A DNA stretch of 64,000 bases from positions 558,001 to 622,000 of the forward strand of contig NZ_BAABIA010000003.1 in the NCBI RefSeq assembly GCF_039542385.1, read 5' to 3'. Position numbers and translations under genes: made by a program. This stretch comes from Prosthecobacter algae (lineage in GTDB: Bacteria; Verrucomicrobiota; Verrucomicrobiia; Verrucomicrobiales; Verrucomicrobiaceae). Position 1 is the stretch's first letter; every line of letters starts with the position of its first letter. The notes beneath the pieces were generated by a model. That model was given only the letters and a program-made list of their open reading frames with translations. It did not search any database and was not told the DNA's origin. Positions 42,212 to 52,573 of this stretch are shown here, piece by piece.

Positions 42212-45200
42212 TCACTGAGGCCGCAGCAACAGGCTGCCGGAAAGAATGGGCGTGGCCGCTGGGCCACCGGGACTGGGCAGGGCTGGCAGGAGGAAGTAGC
42301 CGACACCGCGATAATTCACGCCATCCCGGATGAGCAGGCCCTGGAGGGTGACGGTGCGTTTGATTTCCTTCGCCCCGGCGCTGGGCGCATCCGTGAGGGT
42401 GAAGCTGCCACTGAGCAGACCTGAGGTGACGACGGCGGAAAGGCGTGTGGCGGCGGGATTGCTGGCAGGAGCAAAGGAGGTGATCTTGCTTTTCAGGGCG
42501 ATGTTCAGGACCTGGTCTGGCTGGTCTGAGGTGGTTTCGATATCGGCAAAGTCGAATTCCACACGGCCATTTTGCACACCGGCCTGGAGGTTTAAGATCA
42601 CGTCGGTGGGCCCCACAGGCGGGACATGCCGGGCACCCACAGCCTGCAGTGGCACGGGATCTACCACGGGAGTGCCAGGGAGGCCAAAGCCAGTCTTGTA
42701 GAGGCGGGCGGAGGCGAGTGTGCTGGCCGGACGTGTCCAGGTGAGGGCGCCGGTGACGGTATTGTCGTCTGGGTTATTGAGGATCTCAGGGTTCAGTGTC
42801 AGCAGGCCTAACAAACTGCCTTTCACGGGAGTGGTGTAGAGGGCCTGATAAATCAACACCTCACCGAGGGGTCCCAACACGGAAGCGCAGGTGAATTTTT
42901 CACCATCTGCCGTGCGACCTGCGGCGATGAGCTTGCCATCTGTCAAGGGGGTCAAGGAGCCGTAACCCCAGCCCTGCGGCACGTCCGCATCATTCGTTAG
43001 ACCACTGTCATCTGCCAGGCGCAGGCCAAAGGTATGCAGGCCCTGGAAGGCGGAGGCGGCAGGGCCTTTGGCATTCCATTTCTGATGCCAGGCGGTGAGG
43101 GGCACCTGCTGGCCTGAGGCGGCCACGCTGGCCTGGGTGAGGCGGTGATTCGCAAAGTCCACCTCAAACGTCAGCGTGAGGAGAGGCGGCAGGGGCTTGC
43201 CGGGGGGCTGGATCTGCACCTGGCCGGACGGCAGAGCGGCAGCGCCAGAGACGAGATCCAGCGCGCCTTTGAAGGGCATCTTCAGGCTGCCCTGAGTGAG
43301 GCTGCCGCTGAACTGGCCAAGGCTGGTGATGGTGAGGTCTAGCCGATGGCCTAACCTTTGATTGATCACAGCATGACGCTCGGCCAAACCGACGTAGGCC
43401 CCCGCGAGCCCGGTGGGGTAGGGCTCGATGACGATGGTTTGGCGGCTTTGTCCTGGGCCGACGGCATTGCTGGCGATGAGGAGGACTTCTTCATAGGTGC
43501 CGGGCTTGGTGGGAATGCCGGTGATTTCGCCCGTCTTGGCATTGACCTTCAGGCCCGGGGGCAAATTTTTCGCGGCGTAGGAGATGGGGGTCTTTTGCAC
43601 CAAATCACTGGTGCGAATGAGATGGTAGAAAGATCCACCGACGATGCCGACATCCAGATTTTGCACCGGGGCGACGATGGGGACATCGTGGTAAATGCGC
43701 AGGTGGGTGGTGGCCCCCGCCGTGGCGGTGCTGTCGCCGGTTTTCACCTCGCACACGTAGGTGCCGCTCTGGGCGGTGACGAGGCCTTTGAGGGTCAAGG
43801 TTTTGGTGAGCTTGCCGATGACGTTGGGGCCCTCCTCCAAGGTGGGGCCGCCGACTTTTTTCCATTCGTACTGAATGTTAGGCCCAGTGGCCTTGGCGGT
43901 GAGAGTGACGGCTTTTGCTTCCTGAAGGGCCAAGGTTTTTTCGATGTCTTCCACCACGGCGAGATGGGCCGGAAGGCTATCCTGCGAGGTGACGGGCTGC
44001 CCACCGGTGACACGCACGGAGTAGGTGCCAGCATCGGTCAACTGGGTGGTGGCGAAGATGAGGCTGGACCCGGCGGCACCCGGCAAGGGGCTGTTGTTTT
44101 TCCGCCAGAGATAACTCTGCACGTCTGGCCCTGCGGTGACGCTGAGGGTCGTGGTGGTGCCTGCCTTCACCACCTGGCTGCGGGGTGGAACGGTGATGCT
44201 CAAGGCATTGGAACCTTGGCCACTGAGGCTGATGAGGAAGGGGCTTTCATCTGGGTCATTGCTGAGGACCCGCAGCGTGGCGGTGCGTGCGCCCGTGGCC
44301 TGGGGAGCAAAGGTGAGAGGCACCTGCATCTCTGCGCCTGCGGCGAGGGTGGTGCTAGCGAGACTGCCGACGGTGAAATCCTCCGCGTGCGTGCCGGTGA
44401 CTTCCAACGCCAGACTGGTGAGATCTCCCGTGCCGGAGTTTTGGATCACCAGGGTCTGCACGGCACTGGTCCCGACGCCCGCGGTTTGGAAAGTCAGGCT
44501 GGCCGCACCGGGAACGAAGGCAGGCTGAGAAGGCAGCAGGAGAGTGATGTCCACGGGAGGGAGCTGCGCATTCACCTCCAGCGGAGGACTGAAGGGCCAT
44601 GGGCGACCGGAGATGAGCGGCCTAACCGCAAGTAAATAACGCCCCGTCGCGGGTGGGGTGAACTGAAAGCCTGTCTGCCCTGGAGTGACCGCCGTCACCA
44701 CGCCACTGGAGGCATCCAGCACTTGGCTGAAGGCCACCTCATCCACATACCAGCCGAGGGCGGCATCCGTGCCGGGGAAAAAATCTCCGCCCAGCACCTC
44801 ATAGTTGAAGCGGAGCTGAATGTGCTTTCCCACAAAAGCGGCAAGGGAAACGGTGCGAAGCTGGAAAGCAGCCTCCCCGGGGACGCTGCTCTGGCCGCTG
44901 GGGGTGGCCCCAGGTTGGGAGTAAACATCCACCCAGTTGATGCCGCCATCGGTGGTGACCTGTACTTTGGCCACCTGGTTTTCCGTGGCGAAGCGGAGGC
45001 GGCTGCGGAAGGTCATCTGGCCGCCAGCTTGCACCAGAAAGGTCTCTGGATAAGTGAGACGCTCCGCTGTGTAGGCCGTTTCGGGATGAGTGAGGCGATA
45101 GGCAGCCGTGCCCGCGTGCTTCACGGTGGTGGAGCGCGGACTGTAGGTGCCACTGGTGGTCTGGGTGACACGGGTCAAAGTCTCCGCGCCATCATTCGTG

Positions 45201-46231
45201 GCGGACTGGGCAGCGAGGGCCTCCCACTGATACGCGGTGGCCCCGGTGACAGCGGGGAAGGTGTAACCTGCCGCTGTGCCCACCAGCGGCGTGACCGACC
45301 CCGTGGGGAGCGGCGAGACAAGGGCGGGCTTGAAGTCCACCTTCACATTGGCGCCGCCGACGAGGTTTGTCTGCGCCGTGGCATTGGCCCCGAGGCCGGA
45401 AAAGGTGACGGTGCGGTTGGCATTCGCCGTGGGCACAGGGACGGCGTAGCCACCCGAGTCTGCGGTGATGGCATGGAAACTGGAGCCTGTCACATTCACG
45501 GTTAGGCCACCGATGCCTTCGCCCAGATCATAGAAGTCATTGCCATTCAGGTCATAAAAGGCCACGCCCGTGACGTAGGCGAGGCTGTTGATTTGACTGC
45601 CGAAATTTTGCGTGACGAGCTGCGGGCCCACCGTCTGCTGAGTGGTGGTATTTTTCTTCGTTCCTCTCAGCACGCCCACCCCCACTTCGCGGAAGTCGCC
45701 ATGGATGCTGTCGCGGTGGCCGCGTGGGTCCTGCATGCCATCGGTATCGCCATCGTCTCCCCAGTCCACCTGGAAACCTGCGTGGCCATGGAAGACTGAT
45801 TGCGAAAAGGAGAACACATTTTCCCCCAGCGAGGTGAAGGGGTAACCCACCAGGGTCACCCGATCTCCCAGGTCGTCTCCATTGCTGCTGAAGTGGCCCT
45901 GAAAGGCATTGTCCAGCATGTCCTGCGTGTGCCCACGCGCCATCTGGGTGAGCTTGGCATTCATGGCCAAAGGTGGGCGCACGGGCAGGACGGCAAATTC
46001 CTGCTGCATGAGCGGGACATCCACCTCAAAACCTATGAGCGCAGCACGCACGGCCGCATCCGTGGTGGTGGCCAGGCGCAGGCCCTCCGCCGTGGGATTG
46101 GCCCGGCCGCGATTGATCATCTCCAGATAAAGCTGCTCCTCATCCGTGGGCGTGCCGATGGAATACAGCGTGGTCCCCTGCCCCCACGCAGACGAGGCGA
46201 TGGCGAGACAAAGGAGCAGGGCGGCTTTCAT
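42212..46231 (-). CDS. Large secreted protein with a CAP (SCP/PR-1) domain and Ig-like repeats
   Basis: A 1339-residue protein with a signal peptide (MKAALLLCLAIASSAWG). The CAP domain follows at about 20-205: LYLEMINRGRANPTAEG, LAMNAKLTQMARGHTQDML, GENVFSFSQSVFHGHAGFQVDWGD and HRDSIHGDFREVGVGV, including the His/Glu pattern of the family. Then come a SpaA/SdrD-B-like beta domain (GVAFYDLNGNDFYDLGEGIGG), an HYDIN/choice-of-anchor-D-like domain (about 575-675), Ig-like domains, a He_PIG-type Ig domain (LPPGLKVNAKTGEITGIPTKPGTY) and a C-terminal beta-rich region (about 970-1339). It is presumably exported and surface-associated. CAP proteins have varied roles (adhesion, lipid binding, proteolysis-like folds), so a function cannot be named. 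A large repeat-rich gap lies upstream. Confidence 0.9.
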   Translation of the reverse strand: MKAALLLCLAIASSAWGQGTTLYSIGTPTDEEQLYLEMINRGRANPTAEGLRLATTTDAAVRAALIGFEVDVPLMQQEFAVLPVRPPLAMNAKLTQMARGHTQDMLDNAFQGHFSSNGDDLGDRVTLVGYPFTSLGENVFSFSQSVFHGHAGFQVDWGDDGDTDGMQDPRGHRDSIHGDFREVGVGVLRGTKKNTTTQQTVGPQLVTQNFGSQINSLAYVTGVAFYDLNGNDFYDLGEGIGGLTVNVTGSSFHAITADSGGYAVPVPTANANRTVTFSGLGANATAQTNLVGGANVKVDFKPALVSPLPTGSVTPLVGTAAGYTFPAVTGATAYQWEALAAQSATNDGAETLTRVTQTTSGTYSPRSTTVKHAGTAAYRLTHPETAYTAERLTYPETFLVQAGGQMTFRSRLRFATENQVAKVQVTTDGGINWVDVYSQPGATPSGQSSVPGEAAFQLRTVSLAAFVGKHIQLRFNYEVLGGDFFPGTDAALGWYVDEVAFSQVLDASSGVVTAVTPGQTGFQFTPPATGRYLLAVRPLISGRPWPFSPPLEVNAQLPPVDITLLLPSQPAFVPGAASLTFQTAGVGTSAVQTLVIQNSGTGDLTSLALEVTGTHAEDFTVGSLASTTLAAGAEMQVPLTFAPQATGARTATLRVLSNDPDESPFLISLSGQGSNALSITVPPRSQVVKAGTTTTLSVTAGPDVQSYLWRKNNSPLPGAAGSSLIFATTQLTDAGTYSVRVTGGQPVTSQDSLPAHLAVVEDIEKTLALQEAKAVTLTAKATGPNIQYEWKKVGGPTLEEGPNVIGKLTKTLTLKGLVTAQSGTYVCEVKTGDSTATAGATTHLRIYHDVPIVAPVQNLDVGIVGGSFYHLIRTSDLVQKTPISYAAKNLPPGLKVNAKTGEITGIPTKPGTYEEVLLIASNAVGPGQSRQTIVIEPYPTGLAGAYVGLAERHAVINQRLGHRLDLTITSLGQFSGSLTQGSLKMPFKGALDLVSGAAALPSGQVQIQPPGKPLPPLLTLTFEVDFANHRLTQASVAASGQQVPLTAWHQKWNAKGPAASAFQGLHTFGLRLADDSGLTNDADVPQGWGYGSLTPLTDGKLIAAGRTADGEKFTCASVLGPLGEVLIYQALYTTPVKGSLLGLLTLNPEILNNPDDNTVTGALTWTRPASTLASARLYKTGFGLPGTPVVDPVPLQAVGARHVPPVGPTDVILNLQAGVQNGRVEFDFADIETTSDQPDQVLNIALKSKITSFAPASNPAATRLSAVVTSGLLSGSFTLTDAPSAGAKEIKRTVTLQGLLIRDGVNYRGVGYFLLPALPSPGGPAATPILSGSLLLRPQ

Positions 46232-49375: not shown

Positions 49376-50176
49376 TCAGTGGTTGAGTGTGGCCGCGTAA
49401 ATCAGCAATCCCGCACCGAGGACGATGCGGTAGATGGCAAAGCTATTGAAGGTGTGGCTCTGGACAAAACGGATGAGCCACTTCACCACGACAAAGGCGG
49501 ACAGGGCACTGACGAGGGTGCCTAGGGCCACCATGGACCAGTCTTCGCCACCCACGCCGTGATCTTTGATCTCGGAAAAGATTTTCAGCCCGCCCGCAGC
49601 CATGAGGGTGGGAATGCCGAGCAGGAAGGAGAACTCCGTGGCAGCAGGCCGGGCGATGCCGAAGGCCATGGCCATCATGATGCTGGCACCGGAGCGGGAA
49701 GTGCCGGGAAAAACAGCGGCGAGGAGCTGCGCGGCGGCCACGGCGGCGACGACGACCCAGGTGATCTCCGTGGTGCCCGCTTTGCCCCGATACACGCGCT
49801 CCAGCCACAGGATGATGATGCCACCAATGAGGGTGGCCCAGGCCACGGGGGGCACGGTTTCCGGCAGCTCCACGTCCAGCTTTTTGATGATCAGTCCACC
49901 AGCAGCGGTGAGGAGGAAGGCGGCGGCTAACTTGGCCAAGTAGTCACGCGTCTCTGGGCTGCCGAGACTGAAGGCCAACTGCTTCACCCGCTGGGTGAAA
50001 ACGGCCAGTACAGCCAACACGGCACCGCTCTGGATGACCACGTTAAAGAGGTCACTCTTCGCGGGTAACCAACCGAGGGTCTGGGGTATCAAGAGGTGCC
50101 CCGTAGAGGAGATGGGTAGGAACTCGGTGACACCTTCGATGATGCCAAGCAAGATAACGGAGAGCCAGTCGGGCAT
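49376..50176 (-). CDS. uppP: Undecaprenyl-diphosphate phosphatase (BacA type)
   Basis: A 266-residue polytopic inner-membrane phosphatase that recycles the lipid carrier for peptidoglycan synthesis and confers bacitracin tolerance. The start is the ATG at 50176 (MPDWLSVILLGIIEG), because the frame upstream to 50251 does not resemble the family. Both conserved motifs are present: EGVTEFLPISSTGHL (14-28) and the FPGTSRSGASIM motif (about 166-177). Around eight membrane segments are visible. The next gene on the strand is DUF2062, 13 bp away. Confidence 0.95.
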   Translation of the reverse strand: MPDWLSVILLGIIEGVTEFLPISSTGHLLIPQTLGWLPAKSDLFNVVIQSGAVLAVLAVFTQRVKQLAFSLGSPETRDYLAKLAAAFLLTAAGGLIIKKLDVELPETVPPVAWATLIGGIIILWLERVYRGKAGTTEITWVVVAAVAAAQLLAAVFPGTSRSGASIMMAMAFGIARPAATEFSFLLGIPTLMAAGGLKIFSEIKDHGVGGEDWSMVALGTLVSALSAFVVVKWLIRFVQSHTFNSFAIYRIVLGAGLLIYAATLNH

Positions 50177-50389
50177 GGGAAAACAGGTCGGGGACAAACG
50201 CCAGGGAGGAACGCGAGGGGAGGACTTACGGGCCGATACTGCGGATTGCAAGCCCTGCGGAAAGGGGAGGGAAACAATCCTGGCACACGTATGCCCACCC
50301 GAGGTCTACCATAGAGGTCTCGCTCATTGACATACCCTAAGCTTCCTGATAGCCTTTCAGAAATTCCTGAGAATCCTGAGACACCTGCC

Positions 50390-50746
50390 ATGAAAGTTGC
50401 CCTTCATTTTATACGCATCCTTGGTGTGTGTGCGTGCCCGATTCTGGTCGGCTGCAAGGACCTCCAGTTCACCCAAACGCAAGCCGAGAGAAATGAGATT
50501 CAGGCCAAAATATCCAGCCTGACAAGCCAGAACAACGAACTGGACCAACAGATCCAGACCCTCAGGCAGGTGGTGCCTCCAGGACTTGCCTCCACGGCGG
50601 CGGCAAACCAGCAGGCGGAAAAACTCGCCAAAGAACTGTCTCTTCAGGAGCAGGAACTCCTTAAGGTGATCAAAAATTATGAGGCGACTGATGCCGCATT
50701 GAAAGCCCAGCAGCAGGAACTCGAAAGCTTGCGCAGCAGCCAGTAA
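50390..50746 (+). CDS. Lipoprotein with a coiled coil (module 1, first gene)
   Basis: A 118-residue protein from the ATG at 50390 (MKVALHFIRILGVCACPILVGC). The signal peptide ends in a lipobox (ILVGC), so Cys22 should be lipidated and the protein anchored in a membrane. The rest is helical with heptad character (TQAERNEIQAKISSLTSQNNELDQQIQTLRQVV; QEQELLKVIKNYEATDAALKAQQQELESLRSSQ), broken by a PPGLASTAAANQQA linker. It starts a same-strand group of four genes; the third gene (51321) has the same architecture. No known lipoprotein family is recognised. Confidence 0.75.
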   Translation: MKVALHFIRILGVCACPILVGCKDLQFTQTQAERNEIQAKISSLTSQNNELDQQIQTLRQVVPPGLASTAAANQQAEKLAKELSLQEQELLKVIKNYEATDAALKAQQQELESLRSSQ

Positions 50747-50793
50747 ACGGGACTTGCCGATATTTTGCCAGCCCTTTCAGCCATCCTCTTTCC

Positions 50794-51273
50794 ATGAAAA
50801 ACTTTCTCGCCCTGCTCATCTTCGCCGCTGCCGGCGGTGGCTGGTATGTTTATCACCAGAATACCCAGGCCAAGATACAGATCGCTGAAATGACCCAAAA
50901 TCTGCCGATCTATGAACAGACCGTGGCCACCCGCCAGGCCGAGGTGCAGGCCTATTCACGGATGCTGGACCTTCAGAAAAAAGTGCAGGCCAAGCGGACA
51001 GAAGTGAACGCCATCGTGGAGAAAGAAAGTAGCCTCAAAGAAACCCTGAGCAAGCTAGCCAAGGAGAAATCCGACATCGTCAGCCGGGCCCGTCAGGCCT
51101 TTGCAGGCAAGGTGATCCCAGAACTGACTCTCACCGATGGCAGAAAACTTGCTCAAGTGAAAATCATCAAGGTGGAAGAATCCGGCCTCTCCGTCAGCCT
51201 GCCCAGCGGGGTCCAAAAAATACAGCCTTCTGAGCTTCCTGAAAATTTGCGCAAGAGTTTCCATTACCGCTAA
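50794..51273 (+). CDS. Membrane coiled-coil protein with a C-terminal SHD1-like domain (module 1, second gene)
   Basis: A 159-residue protein. One N-terminal membrane segment (LALLIFAAAGGGWYVYH) is followed by a long coiled coil (about 25-100, rich in Q, E, K), then a small beta domain at about 106-159: GKVIPELTLTDGRKLAQVKIIKVEESGLSVSLPSGVQKI..ELPENLRKSF. The same domain recurs in the 51701 protein and resembles the SHD1-type domains of this phylum (compare the DUF1549 protein at 16173). Predicted to sit in the inner membrane with the coiled coil and domain outside the cytoplasm. It lies 47 bp after the first lipoprotein gene. Confidence 0.75.
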   Translation: MKNFLALLIFAAAGGGWYVYHQNTQAKIQIAEMTQNLPIYEQTVATRQAEVQAYSRMLDLQKKVQAKRTEVNAIVEKESSLKETLSKLAKEKSDIVSRARQAFAGKVIPELTLTDGRKLAQVKIIKVEESGLSVSLPSGVQKIQPSELPENLRKSFHYR

Positions 51274-51320
51274 ACAAAGGCCCAGACTGCTTTTCACCAT
51301 CGCCCGCAATCCCCCCCGGT

Positions 51321-51698
51321 ATGCAAAAGATCTCCCCAACATCCTCTAACTACCCCTGGCAAGGCTTTCTGCTTCTGGTCATCACCCCCTTCCTCACAGG
51401 CTGCTTTGAGATCAGCAAAACGCAGGGCCAGACTCAAGTTCTGATCCAAGAGCGGCTGGAGGTGGAAAAGCAGATCCCCATCTATGATCAGCACATCGCC
51501 TACTACCAGAGCCAGCTTCATCAAGGCACCAAAATCACAGGCGGTGTCGATCCTTATTACGACACGCTCAACGCCTACCTGCAAAAGGTAGAGACCGCCT
51601 TGGTGGAAACCAAGGTCAAAATGGCGGGCCGCAGCGCTTACTTGAACATCCTGCGCGAAGAATCTTCACGCCAACACAGCCTCCAGCCACAGCCCTGA
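51321..51698 (+). CDS. Lipoprotein with a coiled coil (module 2, first gene)
   Basis: A 125-residue protein from the ATG at 51321. The signal peptide ends in a lipobox (PFLTGC, Cys28), so it should be lipidated. The mature part is helical (VLIQERLEVEKQIPIYDQHIAYYQSQLHQG, then YYDTLNAYLQKVETALVETKVKMAGR). Its segment QIPIYDQHIAYYQSQL resembles NLPIYEQTVATRQAEVQAY of the 50794 protein, a sign of shared ancestry or fold. It corresponds to the 50390 gene in position and design. The stop is 2 bp before the next ATG. Confidence 0.75.
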   Translation: MQKISPTSSNYPWQGFLLLVITPFLTGCFEISKTQGQTQVLIQERLEVEKQIPIYDQHIAYYQSQLHQGTKITGGVDPYYDTLNAYLQKVETALVETKVKMAGRSAYLNILREESSRQHSLQPQP

Positions 51699-51700
51699 TT

Positions 51701-52573
51701 ATGAGCAGCATTCTCGCCGTTATTTTTTGCCTGGCTGTGGTGTTGGGTTCCTTTGGCCTCTACCTGCAAGATAAGCAGGCGGAGGCGTCCCTGGCCATGG
51801 AAAGCGCCAGACGACAGCTTACCCTCGCCAAAAATGCCCTGGCTGACCGTGACCAACATCTCTCACTGCTGAAACGACACTACGATATTCAGCGGAGCAT
51901 TTACGACACCAACCAGGCCTACATCGAAGCGGCCACTGTGATGCAGGAACTGGAGCAGGAAATCGACAGCCAAAAGAAGACCTACCAGCACATCGTGGAG
52001 GCCCGCCGCAATTCTGCCCGTGGCACCACCCTCGAATTCCTGGAACTGCCCGATGGTACTGTTCTCCGCAGTGCCAAGATCTTGAACTTTGATGACACTA
52101 CCCTTTCAGTGCTCACTCCCAGTGGCATCTTGAAAATACCCGCGCAGGAACTGCCGGATCACCTGAAAGACTATTTCAGATTGGATCTCATCGAACCCGA
52201 GTCCGAACTGGCTGCGGGAGCGTTGGATCCTGAAAATTCCAATGGGGAGACGCCCAAAGGCGCTTTTCAATACAGCAACATTTCCATGGAACCTTCGAGT
52301 GGCGAACCCACCTTGTCGCACAATGAGAAGGTGAAACTTTACAGCCAGCATCTCCAGGTCCTGAGCACTCGGATTAGCAAGCTAGAACAAGCCAAAAACG
52401 CCCCTTTCATCGGCATTGACTCTTACCTGAAACCTGGCAGTGCGGCCCACAAACACCGCCTGAGAGATCGTGCAAAGAAACTGGATCGAGAGATTGCCGT
52501 CCTGGCCGCGAGAAGACGCGAACTGGAAGCTCAGCGCAGGAAACTCACTGCGCCGGCAGTGACCAACCGCTGA
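51701..52573 (+). CDS. Membrane coiled-coil protein with an SHD1-like domain and a C-terminal extension (module 2, second gene)
   Basis: A 290-residue protein. One N-terminal membrane segment (MSSILAVIFCLAVVLGSFGLYL) is followed by a coiled coil (about 25-100) and an SHD1-like domain at about 104-160 (GTTLEFLELPDGTVLRSAKILNFDDTTLSVLTPSGILKI..QELPDHLKDYF), alignable with the domain of the 50794 protein (shared DG, KI, LSV, PSG, KI, ELP, L and F). A further 130 residues with a second coiled coil (KLYSQHLQVLSTRISKLEQAKN, DREIAVLAARRRELEAQRRKL) are absent from the 50794 protein. It is the last gene of the cluster. No function is known. Confidence 0.75.
   Translation: MSSILAVIFCLAVVLGSFGLYLQDKQAEASLAMESARRQLTLAKNALADRDQHLSLLKRHYDIQRSIYDTNQAYIEAATVMQELEQEIDSQKKTYQHIVEARRNSARGTTLEFLELPDGTVLRSAKILNFDDTTLSVLTPSGILKIPAQELPDHLKDYFRLDLIEPESELAAGALDPENSNGETPKGAFQYSNISMEPSSGEPTLSHNEKVKLYSQHLQVLSTRISKLEQAKNAPFIGIDSYLKPGSAAHKHRLRDRAKKLDREIAVLAARRRELEAQRRKLTAPAVTNR

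Follow-up and report, generated by a model that had tools for sequence, protein, structure and literature searches.

The window, i.e., the whole 64,000-nucleotide stretch of Prosthecobacter algae DNA that was analysed, comes from a 6.1 Mb genome and carries on its forward strand four small genes in the order lipoprotein, membrane protein, lipoprotein, membrane protein, all four open reading frames being located as a first-pass annotation had claimed. The first, A1 (50390..50746), codes for a lipoprotein of 118 residues (97 when mature) with the lipobox ILVGC and a predicted helical hairpin, as judged from its translation, a match to the A-family profile (E 2.3e-24) and an AF2 model with a mean pLDDT of 88. 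It is followed by B1 (50794..51273), coding for an inner-membrane protein of 159 residues that lacks a C-terminal extension and consists of one N-terminal membrane segment, a helical arm of about 84 residues and a small barrel (51112..51225, residues ~107–144, placed by alignment to the modelled barrel of B2). The second lipoprotein gene, A2 (51321..51698), specifies 125 residues (98 when mature) with the lipobox FLTGC and a match to the A profile at E 4.1e-21, so that both lipoboxes noted in the first pass are present. The second inner-membrane protein, B2 (51701..52573; 290 residues, AF2 mean pLDDT 87), is of a long form, with a small four-stranded beta barrel (52028..52141, residues 110–147, from AF2 and Foldseek) and a C-terminal helical hairpin (52319..52549, residues 207–283, from AF2). 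Gaps of 47 bp separate A1 from B1 and B1 from A2, and 2 bp separate A2 from B2.

On the other strand and divergent from A1 lies uppP (49376–50251, minus strand; UppP/BacA, Pfam PF02673, E 1.7e-62), and the strandless intergenic region 50252..50389 is common to both. The head-to-head placement of uppP and the array recurs in five more species (loci L037, L040, L046, L184 and L185), which suggests shared regulation, albeit of a kind that is not general across the B family. A scan of the locus found no sigma-70-like promoter, and terminator-like sites on the plus strand fall only within B1. Downstream, a convergent gene codes for a 1714-residue protein with PSCyt1, PSCyt2 and PSD1 domains (Pfam); the identified neighbours of the array are UppP, DUF2062, ArsR, CobW-like and PSD1/PSCyt proteins. 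Elsewhere in the window (42212–46231, minus strand), a 1339-residue exported protein has, by eye, a CAP/SCP-like region (MINRGRANP) at its start and Ig-like segments behind it.

The matches of A1, B1, A2 and B2 to curated Pfam or NCBIfam families all fall below the cut-offs, and a PDB sequence search returned only chance coiled-coil matches. A description of the pair was not found in the open-access literature, while subscription papers could hold one; the first-pass remark that no system of this design has been described thus agrees with the libraries searched, and the pair appears to be unnamed and its function to be without a prior test.

In the AF2 model of B2, built with 35 relatives as input, residues 2–106 form a single unbroken helix (pLDDT 92–98) comprising the membrane segment and about 85 further residues, i.e., ~13 nm at 0.15 nm per residue; this is followed by four strands within 110–147, a disordered stretch and the hairpin of residues 207–283. 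Heptad-like hydrophobic periodicity is significant in the arms of both proteins (p 0.018 for B1, p 0.004 for B2) and not significant in the tail of B2. A B2 query recovers B1 within the genome at E 1.6e-11 and 27% identity over residues 4–161, a match spanning the membrane segment, the arm and the barrel and thus reaching beyond the C-terminal motif alone. Together with the arm periodicity, this bears out the view that both membrane proteins share one membrane segment, a coiled coil and an alignable C-terminal beta domain, the barrel motif being common to the whole B family. The extra 130-residue coiled coil ascribed to B2 in the first-pass annotation is instead modelled as a disordered linker (~175–206) leading into the helical hairpin, and it is hardly extra: the long form with this C-terminal hairpin is the usual one, whereas the B1 clade (157–162 residues) and another paralogue group (190–203 residues) are the ones without it.

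The B2 barrel resembles Hfq/Sm, SH3, Tudor and Sla1 SHD1 folds in Foldseek, none of them at E below 0.001, and VIA-align 2 matches only the C-terminal hairpin of B2, with Z values that helical bundles commonly reach. Likeness to SHD1 (PF03983) is seen against Sla1 (2hbp; Foldseek probability 0.98, TMt 0.57, E 0.18), albeit at rank 50 and below the Hfq/Sm folds. The genomes that carry B also hold many SHD1 proteins, and a profile–profile comparison places the two domains in register, weakly (p 0.07, with an SHD1 set of low diversity). Unlike SHD1, the B barrel is without the W-x-D start, and Pfam detected SHD1 in none of 35 B members at E 0.01.

In some B proteins (loci L049 and L054) a trypsin-like domain recognized by Pfam is fused C-terminal of the barrel. 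As trypsin-like proteases are usually exported, these fusions agree with a C-terminal side of B that would face the periplasm. B-family proteins of 565–672 residues occur in other Prosthecobacter genomes at L049:9463-11196, L050:3909-5618, L051:5358-7055 and L054:8125-10077; those of L050 and L051 are close relatives of the trypsin-fused protein of L049, and in L049 to L051 the long protein closes an array of three pairs. In other families of the order there are also homologues in which the anchor has been swapped, with a lipobox replacing the membrane segment (L214–L220, family f3; L123:4444-5454; L125:4986-5954); no separate A was found upstream of those of family f3.

The lipoproteins were first described as having coiled coils. 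AF2 models A1 (with 43 relatives as input) not as a plain coiled coil but as a helix-turn-helix hairpin of helices 3–61 and 69–117 at a mean pLDDT of 88, with mature arms of ~40 and ~49 residues or ~6–7 nm; heptad-like periodicity is not significant in A1 or A2, and Foldseek returned no match for the A1 model. Helical lipoproteins serve as spacers in the form of Braun lipoprotein (Lpp) and RcsF, where lipoprotein length matters for the intermembrane distance of E. coli (PMC5771553). The A proteins are like these in being helical lipoproteins, and unlike them in forming hairpins and in having a stalk protein of the inner membrane as partner; no relation in sequence was found.

That the two genes belong together is clear from their distribution. 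With an automatic rule for an upstream lipoprotein, 59 of 84 B genes directly follow a lipoprotein reading frame, as opposed to 8 of 479 control genes, the controls being the other genes of at least 150 residues in the same stretches (Fisher p 1e-50, for genes that are phylogenetically non-independent). The first-pass annotation had named the lack of a conserved pairing in other genomes as grounds for rejecting its reading; the pairing is strongly conserved. The B genes without a scored A are mostly the second B of A-B-B arrays, homologues with a lipobox of their own or cases where the rule missed the lipoprotein; A comes first in the operon, and a single A may precede two tandem B genes. Within the genome of the window the A profile has exactly three strong matches (E 1e-21 to 1e-25), each directly upstream of one of the three B genes, and the fourth-best match (2.5e-6) falls in a long unrelated frame. 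The third of these pairs lies on contig 7 beside rpsT, the gene for ribosomal protein S20 (locus L036, G000:C7:171106-172271). The A profile also matches the C-terminal hairpin of the B protein at that locus (E 2.4e-4); on this match, in which coiled-coil bias is possible, that hairpin may resemble A.

The close named relatives of B1 are from Prosthecobacter or Verrucomicrobiaceae. A locus search with the B1 alignment recovered 11 related loci and one with B2 alone none; of 56 related genomes, 45 contain B1 relatives, as a rule several in each. Orthologues of B1 occur in 12 other Prosthecobacter genomes at 33–63% identity, and those of B2 in two (59% in G019, 36% in G339). In the genomes of group g2, which from their clade would be Akkermansia, a lipoprotein of 153–159 residues lies 20–22 bp upstream of a B protein of 333–335 residues, and A-B pairs are also found elsewhere in the order, beyond these two genera. 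Overall, 182 of 241 genomes of the order, in 34 of 41 genera including Akkermansia, have a B-family match, some of them to the barrel only. On the scale of the phylum, the matches outside the order are mostly barrel-only, a few of them being exported proteins that combine a signal peptide with the barrel and helices. On these matches, the barrel is a widespread exported domain of the phylum that has no name, and the A-B pair looks specific to the order Verrucomicrobiales. Selected examples of the exported type (L095–L116) are proteins of 250–280 residues with a signal peptide, barrel and helical tail from Akkermansia and other families of the phylum.

The history of the array was traced in a tree built from the arms and barrels of 49 B proteins. 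All B1 orthologues fall into one clade (13 rows, support 97/97), to which B2 and its G019 orthologue do not belong. A recent tandem duplication, with the B1 and B2 of the window and of G019 forced together, is rejected (AU p 0.023), whereas the test allows B2 as sister to, or within, the B1 clade as a whole (p 0.386). Thus, of the first-pass proposal of a tandem duplication, the recent version falls, and an older one, preceding the radiation of the B1 orthologues, is allowed by the trees. The four-gene array itself is seen in three species, i.e., that of the window, G019 (L037) and G339 (L183, where the contig holds only the A1 end), and A2 lies inside the A1 group of the A tree (99 SH-aLRT). 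The proposed tandem duplication may accordingly be right, but it would be old and later lost or moved elsewhere. Across the family, the distances in the A and B trees are correlated with a rho of 0.67, as against a permuted mean of 0 (sd 0.06, maximum 0.23); the permutation leaves shared species history in, and the deep splits of both trees are between paralogue types. As far as the trees can tell, A-B pairs duplicate and diverge as units.

A single-pass inner-membrane protein with a coiled coil next to a small lipoprotein is also the general design of the two-component spanins (Rz/Rz1, i-spanin/o-spanin; PMC6139136), and the pair could conceivably be a domesticated descendant of such a phage system, whose original task was to fuse inner and outer membrane. 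In PHROGs, B1 matches four families of Rz-like spanins at E values from 1e-4 to 0.08, but the match is confined to the membrane segment and coiled coil, which are common to any such protein, and neither B2 nor the Akkermansia B has a match. Unlike spanins, the A-B pair is chromosomal, multi-copy and spread through one bacterial order without a lysis setting: it sits in no phage lysis cassette, no lysis genes are among its identified neighbours, and uppP is kept beside it in six species. Its lipoprotein gene comes first, its A is a helical hairpin, and a barrel follows the B arm family-wide. A spanin origin is therefore very improbable.

The pair is best read as a periplasmic scaffold made of two coiled-coil parts, with an envelope tether as its likeliest role. 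B would be anchored in the inner membrane via its one N-terminal segment and extend a continuous helix of ~85 residues (~13 nm), which is probably paired with other helices; the SH3/Sm-like barrel would thereby be held out in the periplasm, close to the cell wall, and act as a head for docking or ligand binding, with a flexible linker and a second hairpin beyond it in most members. A, from the same operon, would be a lipid-anchored helical hairpin with arms of ~6–7 nm that packs against B, and, if inserted in the outer membrane, it would meet the outer end of B and form a tether or spacer across the envelope. Paralogues would then offer different heads, one type bearing the trypsin-like protease. 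That A and B are two subunits of one periplasmic coiled-coil complex, preferably with A in the outer membrane as tether or spacer, is favoured tentatively, at a little under an even chance. This reading draws on the gene pairing, the co-duplication, the constrained lengths, the predicted folds, the heptad periodicity of the B arms and the protease fusions, from which contact between A and B, the membrane of A, the oligomer and the spanning role are inferred. Against it stands the want of significant heptad periodicity in A.

The lengths of the two partners are constrained in spite of low sequence identity: across pairs, with Akkermansia left out, the values are 94 ± 3 residues for mature A and 97 ± 6 for the B arm. 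The two are negatively correlated over the same pairs (rho -0.57, uncorrected for kinship), which would suit partners that lie end to end over a fixed span, but the Akkermansia pairs, with a mature A of 130 and a B arm of 104 residues, break this correlation. Extended to a trans-envelope tether and periplasmic ruler of the Verrucomicrobiales, Akkermansia included, in which an outer-membrane hairpin would dock on the 13 nm stalk with its paralogue-variable barrel head and set or sense the intermembrane distance, the proposal is plausible but rather doubtful.

The same lengths bear on the idea that A is not a structural half of the complex but a dedicated assembly partner, needed only for the insertion or oligomerisation of B. 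There is precedent in SadB, a lipoprotein helper encoded beside the trimeric autotransporter SadA (PMC3953254); as there, a small lipoprotein is linked to a long coiled-coil protein. The A protein is small, its gene always leads the operon, and one A can stand before two tandem B genes. Unlike SadA, B is no autotransporter and is without adhesin regions. The near-constant length of mature A and the tracking of A and B distances across paralogues suggest a specific structural fit, and such a helper role is unlikely.

A more serious contender keeps the A-B complex wholly on the inner membrane: the A hairpin would pack on the lower half of the B stalk with no link to the outer membrane, and B, acting as a scaffold or a device for quality control, would offer the cell wall its barrel and sometimes its protease. 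Of 61 A proteins, 49 have D, K, E or N directly behind the lipidated Cys, Asp being the commonest (19 of 61), whereas nine other lipoproteins of the same genome, a comparison set of just that size, mostly have A, S or G there. In E. coli, Asp at this position retains a lipoprotein in the inner membrane (PMC5727369), which speaks against the tether. A1 itself has Lys and A2 Phe there, which by the E. coli rule would send both to the outer membrane, and that rule may not hold in this phylum. The B homologues with a lipobox for the membrane segment suggest that either anchor can serve the same side, and family f3, where no A was found, that two anchors are not always needed. An arrangement confined to the inner membrane is thus a real possibility, if somewhat short of probable.

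The Verrucomicrobiota, whose cell envelope is poorly understood, include Akkermansia from the gut and Prosthecobacter with its stalks. An order-wide module of two genes, multiplied to several copies in a genome and missing from the family libraries that were searched, offers a concrete entry point, as its lengths, pairing and fusions yield testable predictions on how these bacteria hold both membranes together. In three loci (L056, L059 and L062), a gene for a ParA-like ATPase adjoins the A-B modules. Behind the four-gene array of G339 (L183:3183-5837), the genes on the opposite strand read by eye as MlaA, MlaC, MlaD and the MlaF ATPase of phospholipid transport.
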